Shown: one piece after another, positions 290-36,266 of the stretch | How positions within the stretch are numbered: position 1 is the stretch's first letter | How the letters are laid out: each line of letters opens with the position of its first letter | Origin: an archaeon | Lineage (GTDB): Archaea; Nanobdellota; Nanobdellia; Pacearchaeales; GW2011-AR1 | Direction of reading: 5' to 3' | Assembly (NCBI GenBank): GCA_018697295.1 | Contig: JABHTJ010000006.1 | Span: 69,133-116,066 of the forward strand | DNA length: 46,934 bases | Translations under genes and position numbers: made by a program | Notes under the pieces: generated by a model | What the model saw: the letters and a program-made list of their open reading frames with translations, nothing else | The model's database searches: none | Told to the model about the DNA's origin: nothing

Positions 290-1201
290 ATGGAAGAAAA
301 CAAAAAAGCAGTCGTCCTCTATTCTGGCGGACTAGACTCTCGATTAGCAATCTGTCTCTTAGCCGAGCAAGGTTTCGAAATCACCGCACTCTACTTTAAT
401 CTCCCGTACGGATGCGGATGCTGCAACTTAAACTGCAACTTCAACTTCACGCAAAAAAATGAAGTCAAACTAAAAGTATTCGATGTAACAAAAGAACCTT
501 ATTTATCTGAATACTTAGAATTAATAAAAAACCCTAAATACGGAACAGGAGCCGGAATAAATCCTTGTAGAGATTGTAAGGCTTACATTTTCAAAAAGGC
601 CAAAGAGTTCGCGGATGAGAATAATATTGATGTTATAGCGACTGGAGAAGTCTTAGGACAGCGTCCAATGTCGCAAGTCGGTCCAGCAATGAAAATAATC
701 GACAATGAAATAGGTTATGAAATGCTAAGACCACTTTCAGCAAAACTCCTAAAAGAAACTTCGTGGGAAAAATCCGGTTTAGTCGACAGAGAAAAGCTCT
801 TAAAAATTCAAGGAAGGGGAAGAAAAGAGCAAATGGCACTTGCCGATAAATTCAAAATCAAGTATCCAACACCTGGCGGAGGATGTCTTCTTTGCGAAAA
901 AATTCCAGCAGCTAGACTTAAAATTCTCTTAGAAAAAAATCTCGTTAACGAAACAACACTTCCACTTAGCATCTGCGGAAGACATTTTATGATTGATGAT
1001 GTTTGGTTTGTGGTTGCAAGAAATGGGAATGAATGCGACGTAGTTGACAAATTCGAAAATTCGATTATCGGAGATAAAGGCCAACCTTCGGTTTATTTTT
1101 CAAACGAATCGGGAAAAGATATTGCCGGAAAATTACAAATAGCGTATGAAACCGGAGATAATGAAGAGAAAAGAGATAAGTTTGAAAAGTTTAAAATTTA
1201 A
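290..1201 (+). CDS. PP-loop ATPase, ThiI/MnmA-like tRNA thiolation enzyme candidate
   Basis: 303 residues. The N terminus carries the PP-loop signature SGGLDS (12-17), which binds ATP for adenylating a substrate such as a tRNA base. Cysteine pairs follow at 42-45 (CGCC), 93-96 (CRDC) and in GGGCLLC (197-202); they could carry sulfur or bind metal. The segment ATGEVLGQRPMSQ (117-129) is typical of the ThiI-like branch of PP-loop proteins. The C terminus (about 225-285, with ICGRHFMIDD and VVARNGNE) resembles the NFACT-R type RNA-binding domain known to be fused to some ThiI-like proteins. The likely job is sulfur insertion into tRNA; the target base cannot be read from sequence. The stop overlaps the convergent neighbour by four bases (TTAA). 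Confidence 0.75.
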   Translation: MEENKKAVVLYSGGLDSRLAICLLAEQGFEITALYFNLPYGCGCCNLNCNFNFTQKNEVKLKVFDVTKEPYLSEYLELIKNPKYGTGAGINPCRDCKAYIFKKAKEFADENNIDVIATGEVLGQRPMSQVGPAMKIIDNEIGYEMLRPLSAKLLKETSWEKSGLVDREKLLKIQGRGRKEQMALADKFKIKYPTPGGGCLLCEKIPAARLKILLEKNLVNETTLPLSICGRHFMIDDVWFVVARNGNECDVVDKFENSIIGDKGQPSVYFSNESGKDIAGKLQIAYETGDNEEKRDKFEKFKI

Positions 1202-3357
1202 TTACCGCTACGTTTCAACAATTCCTTCAACTTTGCTTGGTCAGCACTACGATCCTTAATTTTCAAAACTTCAAATAAATTCTTCTCTCCAATAGATCCA
1301 CCATTACCAACAGTCACCTCTCGGAGAAGTTTCTTTCGAATCTCATCTGAAACCAAAACTTTTTCCCGAGCAGAATCTGAAATTCGTTTAGCAAATGAAA
1401 TAGTATTCCCAACACTTGTATATTTGAGTTTATTATTTGTCTTAGAGGCAATTAGTTCTCCAGAATGAACACCAATGCTAAAGTCAATTTTTTCCTTGTA
1501 TTTTTTATTATATTCTCGTAATTTTCCAAGAAGACTAACGGCAGATTTAACTGCCAAAATTTCATTCTTATATGTTCGAGTAACAATCGGAGAATAAAGA
1601 ACGAACACAAATTCTCCTCGCCAATCAACAAGGCCTTTCGTAGATTCTAAGCCATAAATTATTTTTTGCAATTCTCCTTTTGCATGTTCCTTAAGGTCAC
1701 CATAATTTTTAATCGAAAGAGAAATTACTGAAGAGATATGTTTTTCTCCTTTCAAAACTAAAGAAGATTCTGCAACAACGGCATGTTTCTTTGTCATGTC
1801 AACCAAAGTTTTATCTTCAACATTTTTCCCGCCTTCAAGTCCAGCAACTTCTGGAGATTTTTTTGTAAAATTAAGGCTGTTATCTATTCCCGATTTTACT
1901 CCAGGACTCAAATGAGAAGCAACACCTTTTTTCGCCCGAGTCATAGTCTCCATAATTTTTTTCCCAGACTTAGAGGCAACGCCATCTCCTTTCCCACCAA
2001 CATCTTTCATTAGATTACTTTTCTTCCCAAGATTCTTCGTTTTTTTAGAACGCACAAATAATACAATAACAATTGATCCAAGGATTACAATCAAAAAGAC
2101 CCAAATAATTGAATAGTTCTTAAAGAATCCAACATCTTCTAAGTCACTAATTCCAACAGCATTTCCCGTAACTAATGAAAGTTGCCTCTCAACTGTTTGT
2201 TCTCCATCATCTACAAGAACATTATATTCTCCAGGATTTTCTCCCTTAAGCGCAAATTTTCGTGTTTCTCCAAGACCTAATTGAATTTCAATATCAAAAA
2301 GTTCCTCGCCAATCGTAACCGAAATCGTTTTATTAAAAACTACATTCCCAACATTTTTTACAATTAAAACAGAGTCCTCGAAATCATAGGTAGCTTTCAT
2401 ATTAGCAGCAACTTCGAACTCTCGAACTTCTTCAATATCGTGGAAATTTGCAATCACCATCCACGCACCTGCTGTAGAGTTTGGTAAAAATTCAATAGTC
2501 TTAAATGAATTTGCAGGAACACTCAATAAAATATCCTCTTCAGTATCGCTTGGAGAAACAATCGTAATACTTGTAAGACCTTCCATAATTTTTCCTGATT
2601 GGTCCACTATTTCTGTTCCAATATCAAAACTTTCTCCAGGAATTGCAACTGAATCAGATAGGCTAAGTAAAATTGAGCTCGGAATTTGATTAATCTCAAA
2701 AGCAACCTCTGTAGTGCCGGAATTCAAAATCTCTCCATCGACAAAATCATAGGTATATACTGTAAGAGAATAAGGTCCTGATTCGATAGTTTCAGGCATA
2801 TAAAATGTATGAACTAAATTTCCATTGCTCACTTCTTCACTAAAAAAAGTAGCTCCAGAACCTTCGATAAATCCTGCTAAGTTATCTCCATTAAATTTCG
2901 TAGCTTGGATGGAAACAGTAATCGGATCTCGAGGGTCAAAGGCAGTCTGATTAAGGGTAGCAATAACATTTACCTCTTTACTCACAACAAAACTTCCTGT
3001 TGAAATATACTCTGGACCAAGCGAAACTCCAATTTGACAGTTACCAACTACTGAAGTCAAATTTTCTACTTCTAAATCTGCTCGTATTAACTGTTTTTTA
3101 ATTTCTAAAGAAGATTCAGTCTCAAGGTCAAATGAAGTTGCAGGAAACCGAGCTAAATTAATAGTATTATTTTTACATGCAAGGTTCACATTAAGATTTC
3201 CAATCGTCGTCCCAATAATCCCATCAATTCGAATATAGATTTCGTCTCCGAGGTTATATACTGGGTCTGGCTCATTAATACTAATAGCTGCAGACGAAAG
3301 AGAAATAGCCAAAACACTAAATAAAAATGCGATCACCAAAATCCTTTTTTGTTTCAT
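1198..3357 (-). CDS. Receptor-like membrane protein with degenerate class III cyclase domain
   Basis: 719 residues. A signal peptide (1-23) is followed by an extracellular part of beta-rich, Ig/macroglobulin-like segments (about 25-395), the motif VTGNAVG (396-402), one membrane span (about 415-436), a basic cytoplasmic linker and a C-terminal domain (about 540-700) resembling adenylate/guanylate cyclases, e.g. FSIGVHSGELIA and YTSVGNTISFAKRI. The residues that class III cyclases use for metal and base are mostly replaced: the first Asp position reads SLSI, the second reads RGE instead of GD, and the GDxVN motif reads GNTIS; only the Arg remains. It is therefore probably a sensor or scaffold, not an active cyclase. 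Residues 310-404 are similar to the protein at 18886-19698. A TATA-like TTTAAATAC lies about 22 bases before the ATG. Confidence 0.75.
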   Translation of the reverse strand: MKQKRILVIAFLFSVLAISLSSAAISINEPDPVYNLGDEIYIRIDGIIGTTIGNLNVNLACKNNTINLARFPATSFDLETESSLEIKKQLIRADLEVENLTSVVGNCQIGVSLGPEYISTGSFVVSKEVNVIATLNQTAFDPRDPITVSIQATKFNGDNLAGFIEGSGATFFSEEVSNGNLVHTFYMPETIESGPYSLTVYTYDFVDGEILNSGTTEVAFEINQIPSSILLSLSDSVAIPGESFDIGTEIVDQSGKIMEGLTSITIVSPSDTEEDILLSVPANSFKTIEFLPNSTAGAWMVIANFHDIEEVREFEVAANMKATYDFEDSVLIVKNVGNVVFNKTISVTIGEELFDIEIQLGLGETRKFALKGENPGEYNVLVDDGEQTVERQLSLVTGNAVGISDLEDVGFFKNYSIIWVFLIVILGSIVIVLFVRSKKTKNLGKKSNLMKDVGGKGDGVASKSGKKIMETMTRAKKGVASHLSPGVKSGIDNSLNFTKKSPEVAGLEGGKNVEDKTLVDMTKKHAVVAESSLVLKGEKHISSVISLSIKNYGDLKEHAKGELQKIIYGLESTKGLVDWRGEFVFVLYSPIVTRTYKNEILAVKSAVSLLGKLREYNKKYKEKIDFSIGVHSGELIASKTNNKLKYTSVGNTISFAKRISDSAREKVLVSDEIRKKLLREVTVGNGGSIGEKNLFEVLKIKDRSADQAKLKELLKRSGN

Positions 3358-11821: not shown

Positions 11822-13702
11822 TTATTGAACCAAATCAAATTTCCCAAACGCTTTCTCAATAACTGCGAGCGCAGAAGAATCAATCACTATTTCTTTATTT
11901 TCTCGCTCTCCAAGCTCTTTTCGAAGTTCTTCAGAATCAGATTTTACAAGCTTGCTCCCAACAATCTTTTCAATCTTCGAACCATTAACTAAAAACGTAT
12001 TTTTCAAAAAGAAAACTTCTGCATTAGAATCTCGTCCCTTAACCAAAAACTTCGCTTTATCCATTGCAGCAAACTCACATCGCTGATTATATTCGATAAG
12101 CGAGTTCATAATTTCAAGGGCACCTTTCTTCGCATCTTCAACAGCTCGCGTCGTCTTAAACATTTCAACAATTCTATCGTCTTCGGATTTCTTTTTCCCA
12201 GCCTTCTTAGGTTTAGGTGCCGGCTTTCCTAAATCTTCCTTGACTCTAATAATTTTCTTAATATTGTCCAAATATCTCTGCGGAAGTTTTCCAGTTTCAA
12301 CAAATTCTTTCTTAAAATTTTGAATAATCAATTTTTCAGATGAATGTTTATTTTCAAGAGCAGCCTTAAGCATATGAAATAATTCATCATAAGTTTTCGA
12401 AATTGCATTTTCAGCAACGCGCTTTTCAATATCTAATCTAAGTTCCTTTAATCGTTTAATAAAATCTATCGCATTCTTGCTCATTTCATCAAGCTCAGTC
12501 CCATTCATTTTTTTATTTTTTCCATGTTCGTAATCCTTGTAATATCTCACAATAGATTCAATAATCTTAACATATTTTTCTTCCAAGATTTTTTCTTTTT
12601 CAAAAAATACTTCTCTAATTAGTTTAATCGTTTCTTTTGGCGTCGATGGAGCAAGACCATACAACATTAAAATTCCTTGACTCGGCGTTAAAACTCCCCA
12701 ATAAATATCCATAACAGCAATATCCAAAATTCGTCTCTCAATATTTTTCTCTAATTTATTCCCTGAACTCATAAACATATCAATTGCTTCGGGACTTGGC
12801 TTTATCTTCCCCATTCGCAAAAGAGATTTCCAAGGAAGGAATGCTCCCCGGTCATATAATGGAATCCCATCCCGAATAAAAGTAAACATAACTGGATGAG
12901 CGTCTTTTACAGAATCCCAAAATTCAGTCATAAGATAAATTTGAACATTCAAAATATTGTTCTTAACACCAGCAACAGCTTGGGCCTCTTGAATATACTG
13001 ATTAATAATTCCCCTTAGTTTTTCTTTTAATTCTAACCTCGGCATTCGTTTAACATCTGTATCATCAATAATTATGAAAACATCAACATCACTAGTTTTA
13101 ACAACATCTCCTCGAGTAAGTGAACCAGAAACGACATAACTTGTCACATATTTCTCAAATTTTCTTAAAACCATCGACTTATGAATCTGCGCAACACGAA
13201 TCATGGATAAAATTCCTTTGTCCATAAGTGGATAAGAAATCGCGAGAGCTTCAGCAACTTCAAACTTTGAATCTAGTCCTAAATTCCAAAGATCAACTTG
13301 AGTCATTACATGAATCCAAAATTTATCAGAAATTTTCTTCGCTCGTTCAACCATCTCAAGGCGAATTTCTTTAATTTGCTTAAATTTTTTCTCAGGAATC
13401 AAAACCAAAACATGTACTAATTCTTTTTTCGAATCCTCCTCGACAATTTCATATTCTTCCTCAATTTTTTTAGAAGCTTGTTTAGGAATTATTCCAATAG
13501 CTTCGATAAATTTGTATTTCTCGACAAAAGATTCATGAAGTGCTTTAACATCGTCTCCTGCTTTCTTCGCTTTTTCTTTTAAGGCATCTCCAAGCTGGTT
13601 TGAAATAGGAAGACCAGGAACTTTTGAACCAGGAGAATAATCTTTAGAAATCGTTTGCTCGACAGATTTTTCTTCTGCAGCAGATTTGTGTTCAGTTGCC
13701 AT
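11822..13702 (-). CDS. Large nucleotidyltransferase-fold protein
   Basis: 626 residues, cytoplasmic. Residues 187-215 contain a polymerase-beta-type nucleotidyltransferase core: VSGSLTRGDVV followed by SDVDVFIII, i.e. GSx3GD and a DxD pair (205-207) for two metal ions. Upstream is a basic/acidic region with an extra alpha-beta part (90-150); downstream (about 300-450) are long helices that could be HEPN-like; near 500 there is a Lys/Pro-rich linker and a last compact domain. I do not recognise a named enzyme. It could modify a nucleic acid or a protein. It starts from its own leaderless promoter (TTTATATAA at about 13720-13729), next to ribosomal protein genes but not in their operon. Confidence 0.7.
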   Translation of the reverse strand: MATEHKSAAEEKSVEQTISKDYSPGSKVPGLPISNQLGDALKEKAKKAGDDVKALHESFVEKYKFIEAIGIIPKQASKKIEEEYEIVEEDSKKELVHVLVLIPEKKFKQIKEIRLEMVERAKKISDKFWIHVMTQVDLWNLGLDSKFEVAEALAISYPLMDKGILSMIRVAQIHKSMVLRKFEKYVTSYVVSGSLTRGDVVKTSDVDVFIIIDDTDVKRMPRLELKEKLRGIINQYIQEAQAVAGVKNNILNVQIYLMTEFWDSVKDAHPVMFTFIRDGIPLYDRGAFLPWKSLLRMGKIKPSPEAIDMFMSSGNKLEKNIERRILDIAVMDIYWGVLTPSQGILMLYGLAPSTPKETIKLIREVFFEKEKILEEKYVKIIESIVRYYKDYEHGKNKKMNGTELDEMSKNAIDFIKRLKELRLDIEKRVAENAISKTYDELFHMLKAALENKHSSEKLIIQNFKKEFVETGKLPQRYLDNIKKIIRVKEDLGKPAPKPKKAGKKKSEDDRIVEMFKTTRAVEDAKKGALEIMNSLIEYNQRCEFAAMDKAKFLVKGRDSNAEVFFLKNTFLVNGSKIEKIVGSKLVKSDSEELRKELGERENKEIVIDSSALAVIEKAFGKFDLVQ

Positions 13703-18885: not shown

Positions 18886-19698
18886 TTACTTCCGGCTCTT
18901 AACTTTCTTCTTGCTCTTCTTACCTTTGCCTTTCGCCATTCGTCGTTCAACAAAAACAAGTGCTCCAATAACCAAAACAGCAACAACAAATATCATTGTA
19001 AAAGAATATTTCTCTTTTGATGCGGCATTATTCTCTAAATTAGAGGGGTCAGTCGCTCCAGCAAATCCAGTATAACCAACTAAATCTGGATCAACAGCTC
19101 CGATAACATTTCCTGTTCCAAAAAGTTGAATATTCTCTTTTTTCAATGTTACTTCGCCATCAGTAACTTCGATATCATAAAATCCTTCAGGAGAAACAAC
19201 CTTCAATCGCTTTTCTCCTCCAACTCCAATGTTCTGTTTATAAGAATTTATTTCATCTCCAATTTTAATCTGAATTGTTTTTGTATATGCAGTATTACCA
19301 TTATTTCGTATCACAAGTTCATCTCCTTCAATCAAGAATTCTATATCCGAATTTTCTCCAACCGAAAAAGTTCGCGTAACTTCTACATCATTATATGTCT
19401 CAGTTATTTCCCAAAGTCCTGACCGAAAATCAGATTCTACAAGAACGCCTTCTTCTTCATTTGAATTAATAGTCTTCACAATTTCCTTTTTTTGCAAAGC
19501 ATCATTCAAGACAACTTCTACTTCTCCCAAAAGAATATTTGAGTCTTCCAATAAAATTACTGTAAATAAAATGTCCTCGCCAATCATATATTCTGCAGAT
19601 TGCAATCCAGAAATATCTATAGAATATTCAGCTGTTGAAAATGCTACAAGTGAAATAATCATCACTCCAATCACCAACATAAAATCTCTTAATTTCAT
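18886..19698 (-). CDS. Exported single-span protein, paralogue of the cyclase-like receptor's outer domain
   Basis: 270 residues. Signal peptide 1-23, beta-rich outer part, GTGNVIG (194-200), Asn/Ala-rich linker, membrane span 232-251 and a very basic short tail. Residues about 108-206 align by eye with residues 310-404 of the 1198-3357 protein: TRTFSVGENSDI with REFEVAANMKAT, LVIRNNGNTAYTKTI with LIVKNVGNVVFNKTI, and FGTGNVIGAVDPDLVGY with VTGNAVGISDLEDVGF. So the two share a membrane-proximal module, but this one lacks the cyclase-like part. The function is unknown. A TTTAAATAGG box lies about 28 bases upstream. Confidence 0.7.
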   Translation of the reverse strand: MKLRDFMLVIGVMIISLVAFSTAEYSIDISGLQSAEYMIGEDILFTVILLEDSNILLGEVEVVLNDALQKKEIVKTINSNEEEGVLVESDFRSGLWEITETYNDVEVTRTFSVGENSDIEFLIEGDELVIRNNGNTAYTKTIQIKIGDEINSYKQNIGVGGEKRLKVVSPEGFYDIEVTDGEVTLKKENIQLFGTGNVIGAVDPDLVGYTGFAGATDPSNLENNAASKEKYSFTMIFVVAVLVIGALVFVERRMAKGKGKKSKKKVKSRK

Positions 19699-19784: not shown

Positions 19785-22429
19785 ATGAGGAGAAAAAAAT
19801 TTAGTGTTTTAGGTTTGGGATTATTAGTTGTCACTTTTTTAGTCCAATATTTTTCTTTAATGGATTTGATTTCAAAACTACTGGATTTGCAGTCTTAAGT
19901 GATTCTTCGTCTGGAGATTTTGATAATGGAATTTATGTAAATACTGTCCATAATGGGACTGGAGTTATTTTGTCAGGAGATAATCTAACAGGAAACTTCA
20001 CAAGTCAAATTTTTGATGCAACTGGAGATGCAACTTGGAATAATCTAACTTGGACAGGTTCAAAACCAAACATTATGTTCAAATATGCAGTTGACGGAGC
20101 AGGAGATATTTTTTCTTCGATAGATTTGACTACATGGACTCAGCAAGTAGATAATTATGGAAGAACGTCAGATACTCAAGAAATGTTTTCATATGGAGAT
20201 TATCTATATATAATTTCGAGTTCAAACAGAGAAGTTTGGAGATCTTCAACAGGTTCTTCTTGGTCGGTAATTAATGATACTTTTGCAGATTCTGGTCTTC
20301 TCGTCGCTGAAGCTCACTCAAATGGAGATTTATTCATCGGAGATGCTTCCGGAGACGTATATCTATCGACAGATTATGGACAAACATGGACAACAAAAGG
20401 AGATTTTAATGGTGGGTCAACAAGCAATGCAAAAGGGATGGGAATAAGTTCAACGGGAGAAATTTTTATTATCGATGGTGGCAAAGCACTTTTTTCTTCA
20501 ACAGATTCGGCAGATACGTGGTCGGAGATAACTAATGACTATACTGGAAGTGGTGCCAGTTTAGATGATTTAGAAATTGATAGTTCTGGAAACCTCTATA
20601 TCTTAGATGCAAAAGACGTTTGGAAATCAAGCAACTCGGGAGTAAGCTGGACAATCATCAATGATAGTTTCACACCATATTCAAATGAGGGTCTTAAGAT
20701 GTTCATCGATTCAGATGATAATTTTCGTATAACTGATGCCGCAGGAAGAGTTTTCTCCTCGACAGATTCCGGAGTAACGTGGATTGAATATGGCGATTTT
20801 AATGGAGGAGCTTCAAGTAACTCAAAAGGTTTTGCACTCTTTGCTCAACAAACAAATATCTCCTACCAATTCATGAATTGTTCTACATCGGACTGTAGCG
20901 ACGGAACATGGCAAACAGGAGATTTAGAAAATATCAATCTTCAATCAAGATATTTTAGATACGTGGCCTCATTCTCGACACCAGATTCAAGTTCAGGTCC
21001 AATTATCCAAACAGTAACTACAAATTATGATTTATCAAATTCTGCTCCAACAATTGACTTAACTTCTCCAACAGCAACAACATATGATTACAACACATCT
21101 CTTCCCTTAAATTTCACCGTTACCGATGCTGATAGTAATTTAGATGCTTGTTGGTATAATCTTAACGGTGGAGCAAACACTACCTTAACCAGTTGCGCAA
21201 ACACAACATTTAGTATAATTGATGGAGCTCATACGCTAAATCTTTTTGCAAACGACACATTAGGTTCGGAATCTTCGAGCAGCGTAAATTTTAACGTTGA
21301 TTCTACTGGAGTTACATCAACATTAATCGAGCCAACCGGAACAAAAACTTCAAGGACAACAATTCCGTTCAATTATACTGTTCAAGGAAATAGCCTTACG
21401 TGTTGGTATAATGTAAAAACTTCAATTGGCGGAGATGTTATTGACAACACGACACTTGCAAGCTGTGCAAACACCACATTTGACGTTTCATCCGACGGAG
21501 ATTACATCGCAAATTTATTTGTAAATAATACTTTTGGAACTTCAAATACTACAAGCACTACCTTTACTGTAAGTACTTCAGATACATCTGGGGGAGATAG
21601 CGGCTCATCCGGAGGAGGCGGCGGATCTTCTGGGGGCGGCTCATCCGGAGGAGGCGGCGGAAGTGGAAGTTATAATCAGCCTCAATTTGAAATAGGTCCT
21701 GTCTCGGCAATAATTTCTATCGGAGAAGAAAAGAATTTACAAGTAAGTGTAAAAAATACCAAACTTACTTCTGCTAATAATTGCAAACTTACTGTTTCGC
21801 AAGAATATTCAGATTATGTCGGGGCTGAAGAAATACAAAGTATAGCTGGAGGAGGAATTTTTGACTTTAGTTTTATCCTAAATGCAATCGACGAACAAGT
21901 TCAAAATGTTGGACTAAGTATCGGATGTCTAGATGAAATCACTCAGGAAATTCCTCTTGAAATCGTTTTATTATCTCCTGAGCTAGATATTTCTTTTGAA
22001 AAAATTTCTTTTGATTCAGAAGAAGAGTTACTTATTGAGTATTCTGTAGAATCATTATTTAATGTTCAAAAAGATTTAGTATTCAAATTAACAAATTCAA
22101 ATGGTGATGTCGTTAAGGAAGTTACAAAATCAGTAGATTTAGTGAGTGGAGAAATAGTTCAAGGATCTATTCTAATAGAACTTTCTGATGTTGAGAAGGG
22201 AATGGTTAAAGTTTCAATTTCAGAAGAAAATTCTGAACCAATCGTCGAAGAGAGCATAATTTATGGTGGAGCTGGAATTGGGACAGGATTTACTCTATTC
22301 AACTCCGGAGAAAATATCTCCCCAACTGGAATAGTCATTCTTGTCTTTTTAGTACTCTTATTCTTTGTTCTAAGAAGAATCTGGAAATTAAGAAAAGGTG
22401 CTAAACCTGCCAAGAAAAAGAAAAAATAA
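19785..22429 (+). CDS. Large surface protein with Asp-box propeller, frameshifted after the signal peptide
   Basis: The ATG at 19785 starts a signal peptide (MRRKKFSVLGLGLLVVTF), but that frame stops soon after. The main frame continues from there without a stop (FFFNGFDFKTTGFAVLSD) to 22429. One extra T in the T6 run at 19835-19840 would join them. The body has BNR/Asp-box repeats (STDYGQTW, STDSGVTW, SSNSGVSW), a sialidase-like beta-propeller; then two Ig-like repeats each with CWYN and SCANTTF; a Gly/Ser linker; a long beta-rich domain; and a C-terminal membrane span (VILVFLVLLFFVLRR) with a basic tail. It is probably a cell-surface binding protein. If translated from 19970 alone (819 residues) it would lack a signal peptide. 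Confidence 0.75.
21601..21660 (+). repeat. 24-base tandem repeat coding a Gly/Ser linker
   Basis: The 24-base unit beginning CGGCTCATCCGGAGGAGGCG occurs exactly at 21601-21624 and 21637-21660, offset by 36 bases in frame. It codes the GSSGGGG linker between the Ig-like and C-terminal domains and is far richer in G+C than its surroundings. Confidence 0.8.
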
Positions 22430-32795: not shown

Positions 32796-35700
32796 CTAAT
32801 CTCCGGCAACAGAATCTCCAAAATAATCATTAACATCATCACCTTCAACATCCCAAATCCAAAGTCCTGTTTTTCCATCGTAAACTCGAACTTTAGTAGG
32901 AATAAAAAATGGCTGAGTTATTCCATATGCGGCAATAAAATCTTCATGTTCGTCATCATTTATGTCTGGAATACTCTCCAGCTTATATCCAAGAATATTT
33001 CCATTAACCCCACTTTTCTGCCACAAAAGAGTTCCGGTTTCAAGATTATAAGAAAAAATAGTCCCGGCATAATTGTTATCTTGAGAATATTGACTAACAA
33101 TCAGTCTCTCTTTTCCAATCGAATTTTCGACAATTGCAATTTGAAGGCCAAAATTATCATAGGCATCATTTCCTTCAAAAGAAGTAATAAGTTCTAAGGT
33201 ATTTGAGTCATAAATAAAGACTCTTCCTTGATTTTGTAATGTTCCACTATCATAACTTCCAGCACTAATCACAATTTCGTCATAACCATTGTCATTTAGG
33301 TCAGAGATGCTCAAAACATTTTCTCCGAAATTATCCAAGTCATTTTCTCCTTCGATTACGTGAAGTATCGTCCCATCAGAGCCATCCAAAATATAGACTT
33401 TCCCTTTAACTCCAATAACGGCACCAATTTGAGATGAGCCAACAAGAACGTCGGCAACTCCATCCCCCGTAACATCTAAAATTCCGGAAAGACCTTTTCC
33501 AAAAGATAAAACATTACTTAGGATAAGTTGATCAGTTACCCAAATGACTTCGCCGGTAGCACCATTAAGTGCATATACTCGTCTAGGATTTTGAATTGTT
33601 GGATTAATGTTATGGTAAGCCCCCACAAGAAGATCTTCAAATCCATCTCCAGTTATATCATAAATTGAAGAAACAGAGCCTCCTAAAAAATCATTATTCC
33701 CTTCAAGAGACCAAATTTCATTTCCTGTAGCGGAGTCAAATGCATAAATTTTTCCTTGGGCAAATGGAGCAACATAATCATAAAATGGGGCCGTAGAAAT
33801 AGTATACTTTTCTAACCCTCCTTGAACTGTTGTCATTGCATGCCCGAAAAAATCTCCGTCCTCTTGACCTTCGCGAAACCATCCGGCATTTCCCGTAAGT
33901 GAATCGTAAGAATAAATTTTCCCTGTATTCGAACCTGCAATTCCGTCAAAAGATCTCGCACCAACATAAAAATTATGTGGGTCGCAATTTTGACCAAGAG
34001 GGCAAAGATTTCTCTCATAAGTTATTTCTAAATAAGGGGGCCAATTAGATTCAGAAGTATAAAAGTAAGCAAATTCATTAGAGTTAGCCGTTGGAACAAT
34101 ATCGTCTGCATCAAGTTTCGAACGAATACAAATCTGGCTTTTCCCTATCAAATTCATATTAGAAATTCCATGTTCATTGAGTTGAACAGACTTATAGTTT
34201 CCTGTCTGAAGAGAATTTATATTTATCTCTCCAAGGTACTCTGTCGATGAAACTGGGTTAATTGTATCTCCACATTCATCATAATCTCCTCTAACTAATT
34301 CATCAAAATTTGTCCTAGTAGACTCTAATAAAACCAGCTCCCCACCACCCTTATTGTGCGTATTAAGATAAAGTTTTGCATCTTGAATATCCATATTATT
34401 AGGGATTGCCGCAGTATCAAAACTCATAAATCCTCGACGTATAAAAAATAAATCATTTGGTTGTGAATAATCTCCAAAGACTCCCATAAGAATTCCAAAA
34501 TAACTTGGATATTCTCCAAGAGGATAATCGTGTATAAAATTCCAATCATCACTAGAAGATAAAACATAGCCATCTCCTTCATCTGAATAAATAATTGCAG
34601 TACAAGTTCCATCCCCATGGTCCTGATGCCCCTCTCCACATTCATTATTTTCGATAGAATATCCTGAGTCAAATCCAACCGTAAGTTCATTAAAGTGGCT
34701 CGAACAATAGCTCTCTCCCATTATACTTTTTGACTTAACGGCATAGACATAATTTTCTTCAGGAACGCTCGTATAATCTCTGTATGTCATTTCCACAACA
34801 TCTTCTGCAATTGGATTTCCCCAACAGTTTTGATTTCGATAAACATCATAAGTATACCCTTCACTTAATTGCGCTTCCCAAACAATTTCAACATAATCTC
34901 TGAGTCCATCGCTTGCATCAATATTGTAGGGGGTACTGGTCTCACAATTATATTGGCAAGTTGCCCAATTAGAAACTATTCCTGCAGTATTGTCTGCAGT
35001 CAGAGCATTATCTCTTTGGGTAAGTCCGGTAGGAACGCCATCATAAGAAATACTTGGATTGGAAAAATAAGGCATAAAACTTCCAGGACTATAGGCCATA
35101 ACAGTCTTCCATTCTGTTCCTAAATTCCCTATAAATCGATGACCATGAGAATAAGAATAAACTGCTCCGCTACAAGATCCATCTCCGGGAGCATGACACA
35201 TTCCTTGATTGTGTCCAACTTCATGAGAAACAACGGAGATGGAAAAACAACCTGGATCGAATTTATTTACACTAAAGGGTCCAAGGACATTTGCATATCC
35301 ACAGGCACCAACAATATCTCCAAGAAATACTACAATATCAGCACCATATTGCGCTCTCAAGGTATGGACATTATCCATATAACCGTCTCCATTTCCTGAA
35401 AGTCTATTCATATCAGTTTGATAGCTTCCTGCCTCAACATAGTTCACTTGGGAAGTATGAACTTCTCTAAATCGGGTTATAGTCTCACTATTTTCTTGAA
35501 TCGTATTCATCTCAAGCATGATTTCTCTTATTTTGAGTTCCATTGCCGCATTTCCTCCTGCAAGAATTTTGGCTGCAGGAGTATATACGAAAAGAATATC
35601 GATTGGAACAATATCTCCTGACATCAGGGCAAGTGGTTGCCCTTTTGGTTGAGCAATAACATCTCCCGGCAAAATTCCCTCTCCGTCAATTGGTGGAAGG

Positions 35701-36266
35701 CTATCCAATCTTGTTTGAACAATTTTCGTCTTCGCAAGTCCTTCACAGGCCCGATTAGTTGCTCGAGAATATCTTCCATCAGTTCTTGGAATAAAATATA
35801 CTAGTGAATATACATAATCACTATTTGGAACATTTATTCTTCCAACAAGCGCTTCGCCATCAACAACAAATAAAACACTTCCATCATTCGCAACATAATC
35901 TGCAGTTCCATCTTCTCGTTCATCAACTTTAGTCAAGTATATTTCAAAATTCTCTCCAAATTCATCGAATAAAACAACTCCTTCTTTTAATTTTTCAATA
36001 TCGACACAAAATTCTTTCTCAGTAACCGCTGCTCCAGTCCCTGTTTTTTGTTGCAGCGAACTAAAAGGGTACAAAAAATCTGAAGAATCGGCGGGGCTTA
36101 GCTGTGGAACAGAATCTTTCAAATAAAATGAATCAATAATCAACATAAGCGCAACAGTAATAAATAAAGTGATAAAAATTTTAAACAGGAAATTACGGTT
36201 CAAGTTTGAATCAATACGAAATTTTTTATCTACCTTTTTTGAAGGCAAAACCTTTTTCTTCACCAT
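32796..36266 (-). CDS. Giant surface metalloprotease with DNRLRE-like and FG-GAP propeller domains
   Basis: 1156 residues. N-terminal anchor (26-46), a pro-like region (80-220), then a metzincin (reprolysin/M12B-like) catalytic domain (about 220-430) with zinc motif HEVGHNQGMCH (348-358) and a Met-turn VMAYS (389-393). A fibronectin-III-like domain (443-530), a DNRLRE-type domain (570-750) with FIRRGFMSFDTAAIP, and a beta-propeller (770-1156) of FG-GAP repeats such as DITGDGFEDLLVGAY follow. The first propeller blade starts half-way and the protein ends in a half-blade (DVNDYFGDSVAGD), a velcro closure that argues the stop is genuine. It likely digests host or neighbour proteins at the cell surface. 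Confidence 0.82.
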   Translation of the reverse strand: MVKKKVLPSKKVDKKFRIDSNLNRNFLFKIFITLFITVALMLIIDSFYLKDSVPQLSPADSSDFLYPFSSLQQKTGTGAAVTEKEFCVDIEKLKEGVVLFDEFGENFEIYLTKVDEREDGTADYVANDGSVLFVVDGEALVGRINVPNSDYVYSLVYFIPRTDGRYSRATNRACEGLAKTKIVQTRLDSLPPIDGEGILPGDVIAQPKGQPLALMSGDIVPIDILFVYTPAAKILAGGNAAMELKIREIMLEMNTIQENSETITRFREVHTSQVNYVEAGSYQTDMNRLSGNGDGYMDNVHTLRAQYGADIVVFLGDIVGACGYANVLGPFSVNKFDPGCFSISVVSHEVGHNQGMCHAPGDGSCSGAVYSYSHGHRFIGNLGTEWKTVMAYSPGSFMPYFSNPSISYDGVPTGLTQRDNALTADNTAGIVSNWATCQYNCETSTPYNIDASDGLRDYVEIVWEAQLSEGYTYDVYRNQNCWGNPIAEDVVEMTYRDYTSVPEENYVYAVKSKSIMGESYCSSHFNELTVGFDSGYSIENNECGEGHQDHGDGTCTAIIYSDEGDGYVLSSSDDWNFIHDYPLGEYPSYFGILMGVFGDYSQPNDLFFIRRGFMSFDTAAIPNNMDIQDAKLYLNTHNKGGGELVLLESTRTNFDELVRGDYDECGDTINPVSSTEYLGEININSLQTGNYKSVQLNEHGISNMNLIGKSQICIRSKLDADDIVPTANSNEFAYFYTSESNWPPYLEITYERNLCPLGQNCDPHNFYVGARSFDGIAGSNTGKIYSYDSLTGNAGWFREGQEDGDFFGHAMTTVQGGLEKYTISTAPFYDYVAPFAQGKIYAFDSATGNEIWSLEGNNDFLGGSVSSIYDITGDGFEDLLVGAYHNINPTIQNPRRVYALNGATGEVIWVTDQLILSNVLSFGKGLSGILDVTGDGVADVLVGSSQIGAVIGVKGKVYILDGSDGTILHVIEGENDLDNFGENVLSISDLNDNGYDEIVISAGSYDSGTLQNQGRVFIYDSNTLELITSFEGNDAYDNFGLQIAIVENSIGKERLIVSQYSQDNNYAGTIFSYNLETGTLLWQKSGVNGNILGYKLESIPDINDDEHEDFIAAYGITQPFFIPTKVRVYDGKTGLWIWDVEGDDVNDYFGDSVAGD

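Follow-up and report, generated by a model that had tools for sequence, protein, structure and literature searches.

The window (the whole stretch of 46,934 nucleotides that was analysed) carries at positions 1198-3357 of its (-) strand an open reading frame with an ATG start and no internal stops, which encodes a protein of 719 amino acids plus stop and whose features, all on the (-) strand, can be laid out from the N-terminus as follows. A signal peptide at residues 1-23 (3289-3357), with ..SLSSA before the cut and A after it, is recognised by its basic N-terminus and by a hydropathic core (scan windows from residues 3-10, with a maximum of 2.46 at starts 6-7). Then come an ectodomain of 377 residues (24-400; 2158-3288), made of four beta-sandwich modules of the MG/Ig-like kind, and a single transmembrane span at residues ~413-437 (2047-2121), where hydropathy climbs to 3.3 (scan frame starting at residue 417) and which is followed by a Lys/Arg-rich stretch. 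The signal peptide and the single span announced in the preliminary description are therefore both seen. A basic and poorly conserved juxtamembrane linker (residues 439-525; 1783-2043), 87 residues long with a net charge of +10 and a mean pairwise identity of 17%, leads to a class III cyclase fold (residues 526-701; 1255-1782), and the protein ends in an amphipathic helix, LKELLKRS at residues 710-717 (1207-1230), which corresponds to a KFIxxFLKR motif in the family. Judged from sequence and predicted structure, this would be a macroglobulin-like receptor with a pseudo-cyclase as its cytosolic domain.

The outer domains, first described as Ig-like, are instead macroglobulin (MG2)-like beta-sandwiches. 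The MG2 profile (PF01835) matches 59 of 76 ectodomain homologues, the window protein itself falling below threshold, and the AlphaFold model of residues 22-410 (pLDDT 94.9, with 76 homologues as input), which is almost all beta, has its best Foldseek matches in the MG-domain rings of C3/C5, alpha-2-macroglobulin and CD109, with E-values down to 1e-11. Whole-chain TM to these rings is ~0.3, so the modelled likeness is one of individual modules and not of the same assembly. An array of MG2-like modules is thus shared with alpha-2-macroglobulin and C3-C5, but the window protein has four modules only and neither the thioester domain nor the bait region of that family: the thioester motif CGEQ is absent from the 719-residue sequence, and PF07703 appears only weakly, in 5/76 homologues. 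The ectodomain contains just two cysteines, C61 (invariant) and C107 (near-invariant), which likely form a disulfide, and its other near-invariant residues are Y34, N212, D252-Q253, G337-N338 and T397-G398. Instead of sensing, such an ectodomain might serve adhesion or have a structural role.

A near-invariant LTGxA / TGNVIG motif lies a few residues before the span (residues 396-400; 2158-2172) and is also found in the product of another gene of the window (18886-19698, (-) strand), a small paralogue of 270 residues in which the last two ectodomain modules come with a signal peptide and a span but no cyclase domain; the motif might serve in processing or sorting. Several further genomes of the family have short paralogues of this kind. 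Elsewhere in the window are genes for (i) a 1156-residue protein (32796-36266, (-) strand) that combines FG-GAP/beta-propeller repeats with a reprolysin-like metallopeptidase domain and is probably a surface protease, (ii) an 819-residue protein (19970-22429, (+) strand) with a Vps10/sortilin-like beta-propeller match and (iii) a 626-residue protein (11822-13702, (-) strand) in which just one short stretch, residues 181-229, matches a nucleotidyltransferase.

On the cytosolic side, the Guanylate_cyc profile (PF00211) is the only Pfam match placed in the protein, with 24.4 bits against a curated cut-off of 21.9 (E 2.5e-5); it matches the isolated domain with E 4.2e-6 and reaches E <= 0.1 for 29 of the 42 homologous domains. 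The AlphaFold model of residues 506-719 (pLDDT 88.9, pTM 0.81, with 42 homologues as input) has class III cyclases for all of its top 50 Foldseek matches in the PDB, the best being CyaB (3r5g), Cya2 (2w01) and CyaC (1wc0), with E ~2e-11 and TM up to 0.66 of the query. Fold, topology and motif order are those of the class III catalytic domain, with which G633 and G650 are also shared, while the C-terminal helix, modelled at residues 704-717, is an addition. The internal cyclase-like domain of the preliminary description, for which a profile search and a structure prediction had been proposed as checks, is borne out by both, and no different fold emerged; a GGDEF fold was considered and rejected, since just two of the 42 members match it, weakly. 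There is also a weak match (E 1.4e-4) to the PADLOC profile of Pycsar PycC, which is a catalytic class III-type cyclase with an adjoining effector, whereas the window gene lacks the catalytic residues and has housekeeping neighbours; weak PycC matches of this kind reflect the cyclase fold.

What became of the active site was read from an alignment in which 124 orthologous domains stand beside 19 canonical class III cyclases from the archaeal class to which the order belongs. The altered motifs noticed earlier, SLSI (546-549), RGE (580-582) and GNTIS (650-654), fall where expected: S548 (1714-1716) occupies the position of metal-binding Asp a, E582 (1612-1614) that of Asp b and D578 that of the base-binding Lys, while in the NTISFAKR segment (residues 651-658; 1384-1407) N651 replaces the base-binding Asp, S654 replaces the transition-state Asn, and the transition-state Arg is kept as R658. 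Both metal Asps are thus changed in the window protein, as had been claimed, but only the loss of Asp a is uniform across orthologues, in 123 of 124 (K 58, S 19, R 18, H 10, N 8, D 1), the Asp b column still holding Asp in 48 (39%; the others include E 25, N 23, S 12 and G 11). The remaining columns have changed as well: Y 85 and D 24 for the base-Lys, N 59, T 38 and D 5 for the base-Asp, T 37, S 31 and N 13 for the Asn, and K 77 and R 37 for the Arg, with Asn and Arg found together in a single orthologue. Next to the latter, K657 is Lys or Arg in 123/124, a family-specific trait.

Taken together, the two metal Asps never occur jointly in any of the 124 orthologues, and at most three of the six catalytic residues survive in any one of them, so that the loss of these residues is order-wide and not the product of misalignment. 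The canonical cyclases, which serve as positive controls, align correctly and keep all six residues in 14 of 19 cases, five in 4 and four in 1, and the alignment is anchored by intermediates (L032, L037 and L047) reading VSVLL-x-ISGF .. LYGNN .. YTxIGNTxSLAxAL. The possibility raised at the outset that orthologues are catalytic and the window protein merely misaligned was therefore not borne out, and these residue counts also rule out a receptor cyclase with a divergent working site. We are confident that the cytosolic domain is a pseudoenzyme rather than a cyclase, as the preliminary description had suggested: the fold is kept, the catalytic residues are lost and the domain is under purifying selection. 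The check proposed there, whether the Asps are lost throughout while the rest is conserved, comes down on the side of a pseudoenzyme.

A cyclase working through non-canonical residues, or as a heterodimer with another cyclase domain, is accordingly very improbable. It would draw on the fully kept fold, on the Asp b still found in 39% of orthologues and on the Arg or Lys that fills the transition-state Arg column (37/124 and 77/124), but Asp a is gone from 123 of 124 orthologues and the Asn from most. As for a heterodimer, no second PF00211 domain was found in the 0.73-Mb genome (85% complete), and strong canonical-type PF00211 matches occur in only about 9 of the 180 genomes of the order. Effectors of the PF00027 type are likewise missing from view, this cNMP-binding domain being found in none of 109 genomes of the order in a search that was positive for 10 of 14 control genomes. 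The prediction is that the pseudo-cyclase makes no second messenger.

Selection bears on a different alternative, which is that the ex-cyclase is now a structural spacer or decaying remnant, that is, a folded anchor with no specific role. Its best argument is that two members of one genus (L041 and L042) have dispensed with the domain and kept the rest of the gene. Against this, dN/dS of the domain is 0.11-0.27 in 12 pairs, lower than that of the ectodomain in most of them, which indicates that the domain is selected and not decaying; it is retained across the order, and it has near-invariant residues (G537, N551, T593, N598-E599, N617, G633 and K657), several of which set the family apart from canonical cyclases (Gly there in place of N551, Leu/Met of T593 and Ser/Ala of K657) and of which N617 is kept in 119 of 120 non-gap orthologues. 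We consider the spacer or remnant unlikely, if less so than an active cyclase.

The gene is a fixture of the order. Orthologues were found in 170 of 180 genomes (94%), including 19 of the 20 that are >=90% complete, nearly always as one full-length copy per genome, and in named collections its close relatives go under Candidatus Pacearchaeota or Nanoarchaeota. No plasmid-borne homologues were found, there is no NCBIfam family for the protein, and no description of such a protein was found in the open-licence literature searched. Sequence and structural models would make it part of the vertically inherited core of Pacearchaeota, as a receptor or anchoring protein of the cell surface. Gene neighbourhood was also explored as a source of functional partners, and yielded only recurring housekeeping genes (aminoacyl-tRNA synthetases): a ThrRS/TrpRS neighbourhood is common to the order and to the class around it, with the same ThrRS family near the gene, mostly in divergent orientation, in 51 of 96 order loci and 12 of 20 class loci.

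Where the protein came from can be traced in the class at large. An alignment search with the ectodomain in 141 class genomes found it in 49, many of them outside the order, and the ThrRS family beside both sets of loci identifies the class proteins as orthologues, not chance look-alikes. In the 21 tails examined from outside the order there is no cyclase domain but a short basic tail instead, and 15 of these 21 finish with a hydrophobic GLFGMFD-type end (GxxFxMFD), against 0.5 in shuffles. This end (L260-L279) looks like a docking motif, and it is largely specific to the receptor in the genomes searched; the idea that it is a tag common to many proteins was dropped after a pattern search of the genomes returned the receptor itself and few others. 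Tails of the order have an end of their own, with the strict KFIxxFLKR motif of the C-terminal helix in 78 of 129 against 0.15 in shuffles (these being related and not independent sequences), and the two members that lack the cyclase domain retain similar ends (PFIERALRK and WFIKRSLRK). This helix is not common to the whole class, since the order's motif is present in a single one of the 21 class tails, which does not exceed the level in shuffles.

Trees tell a compatible story. In the ectodomain tree, cyclase-bearing proteins group within the order and the two cyclase-less members are nested inside, which, with moderate tree support, is best read as one gain of the domain followed by loss in one genus. 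In the domain tree, pseudo and canonical cyclases are split on one branch (SH-aLRT 87), and outside the order the domain profile matches canonical-type cyclases, not the receptor fusion. The nearest sequence relatives found for the pseudo-cyclase domain are canonical cyclases of the same class (L053-L056 and L190-L195), which keep the catalytic residues and have a different sensor part, several with a CHASE2-like N-terminus (assigned by eye). It is likely, as far as sequences can tell, that a class-wide receptor with a short tail gained a cyclase domain in this order, and that the domain replaced the tail.

This descent qualifies the resemblance to receptor guanylate cyclases from which the preliminary description had started. 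Topology (ectodomain, one span and a cytosolic cyclase fold) does hold, and is common to animal receptor guanylate cyclases and to the receptor adenylate cyclases of trypanosomes, in which a large ectodomain is followed by one span and one cytosolic cyclase domain (PMC6027212). The ectodomain and the descent do not: the former is macroglobulin-like and not a Venus-flytrap, and the latter is that of a class-wide surface protein to which a cyclase domain was probably added. Moreover, no kinase-homology domain is seen, its place being taken by the basic linker, which has no Pfam match. Compared with receptor-type cyclases generally, the window protein appears from its residues to be catalytically dead, its domain apparently having been gained independently by a surface protein of archaea.

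How such a domain might work depends largely on how the remodelled site is read. Active-site-lining columns go from a mean net charge of -0.9 in canonical cyclases to +2.8 in pseudo-cyclases, and this change from acidic to basic does not discriminate ligand binding from protein docking. The main rival to docking is a metal-free ligand sensor, in which a nucleotide or other anionic metabolite bound in the basic site would gate the receptor from inside. In keeping with such allosteric control, Asp a has given way to Lys, Arg or His in 86 of 124 orthologues, position 578 is mostly Tyr, and conservation is high at N551 and K657, which lie by the site; with Asp b still Asp in 39% and active-site columns that are not unusually variable, some ligand role is possible. 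However, the six catalytic positions have a mean conservation percentile of 65 (92 in canonical cyclases), which is not clearly above random domain positions (p = 0.11), and their residues vary by clade, with Tyr or Asp at 578 and either Asn or Thr at 651, which is not what a fixed ligand pocket would show. A percentile of 65 would fit loss of catalysis and is by itself no demonstration of a new pocket. The sensor therefore strikes us as rather unlikely, although better placed than the spacer.

The domain probably works by binding partners and not by catalysis. The explanation that we find best overall, and to which we give an even chance, is that of a Pacearchaeota surface receptor whose pseudoenzyme cyclase domain has a docking or relay role. 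The pseudo-cyclase and the C-terminal KFIxxFLKR helix, with residues 710-717 as the proposed docking helix, would form a module, probably dimeric, that passes the state or the clustering of the ectodomain to a cytosolic partner and stands in for the peptide with which the tail ends in related orders; Pacearchaeota would thus have built their dock from a dimerising cyclase domain, with catalysis lost afterwards. A weakness of this explanation is that the housekeeping neighbourhood is uninformative and points to no partner protein.

Pacearchaeota, host-dependent members of the DPANN archaea, are widespread and have very small genomes; to our knowledge, essentially nothing has been established about the means by which they sense other cells or attach to them. 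Its presence in 94% of the 180 genomes sampled makes this surface protein a strong candidate for a core function at the cell surface. More tentatively, and on balance doubtfully, it may be a near-universal receptor whose macroglobulin-type ectodomain acts through a metal-free, non-catalytic cyclase relay for outside-in signalling in the absence of a recognisable cyclic-nucleotide effector, possibly for host-cell recognition. The protein would also represent a pseudoenzyme of the class III cyclases that an entire order has fixed, and its traceable origin, from an ancestral short-tailed receptor and with canonical relatives still living, would allow the repurposing of a second-messenger enzyme into a non-catalytic module to be studied directly.
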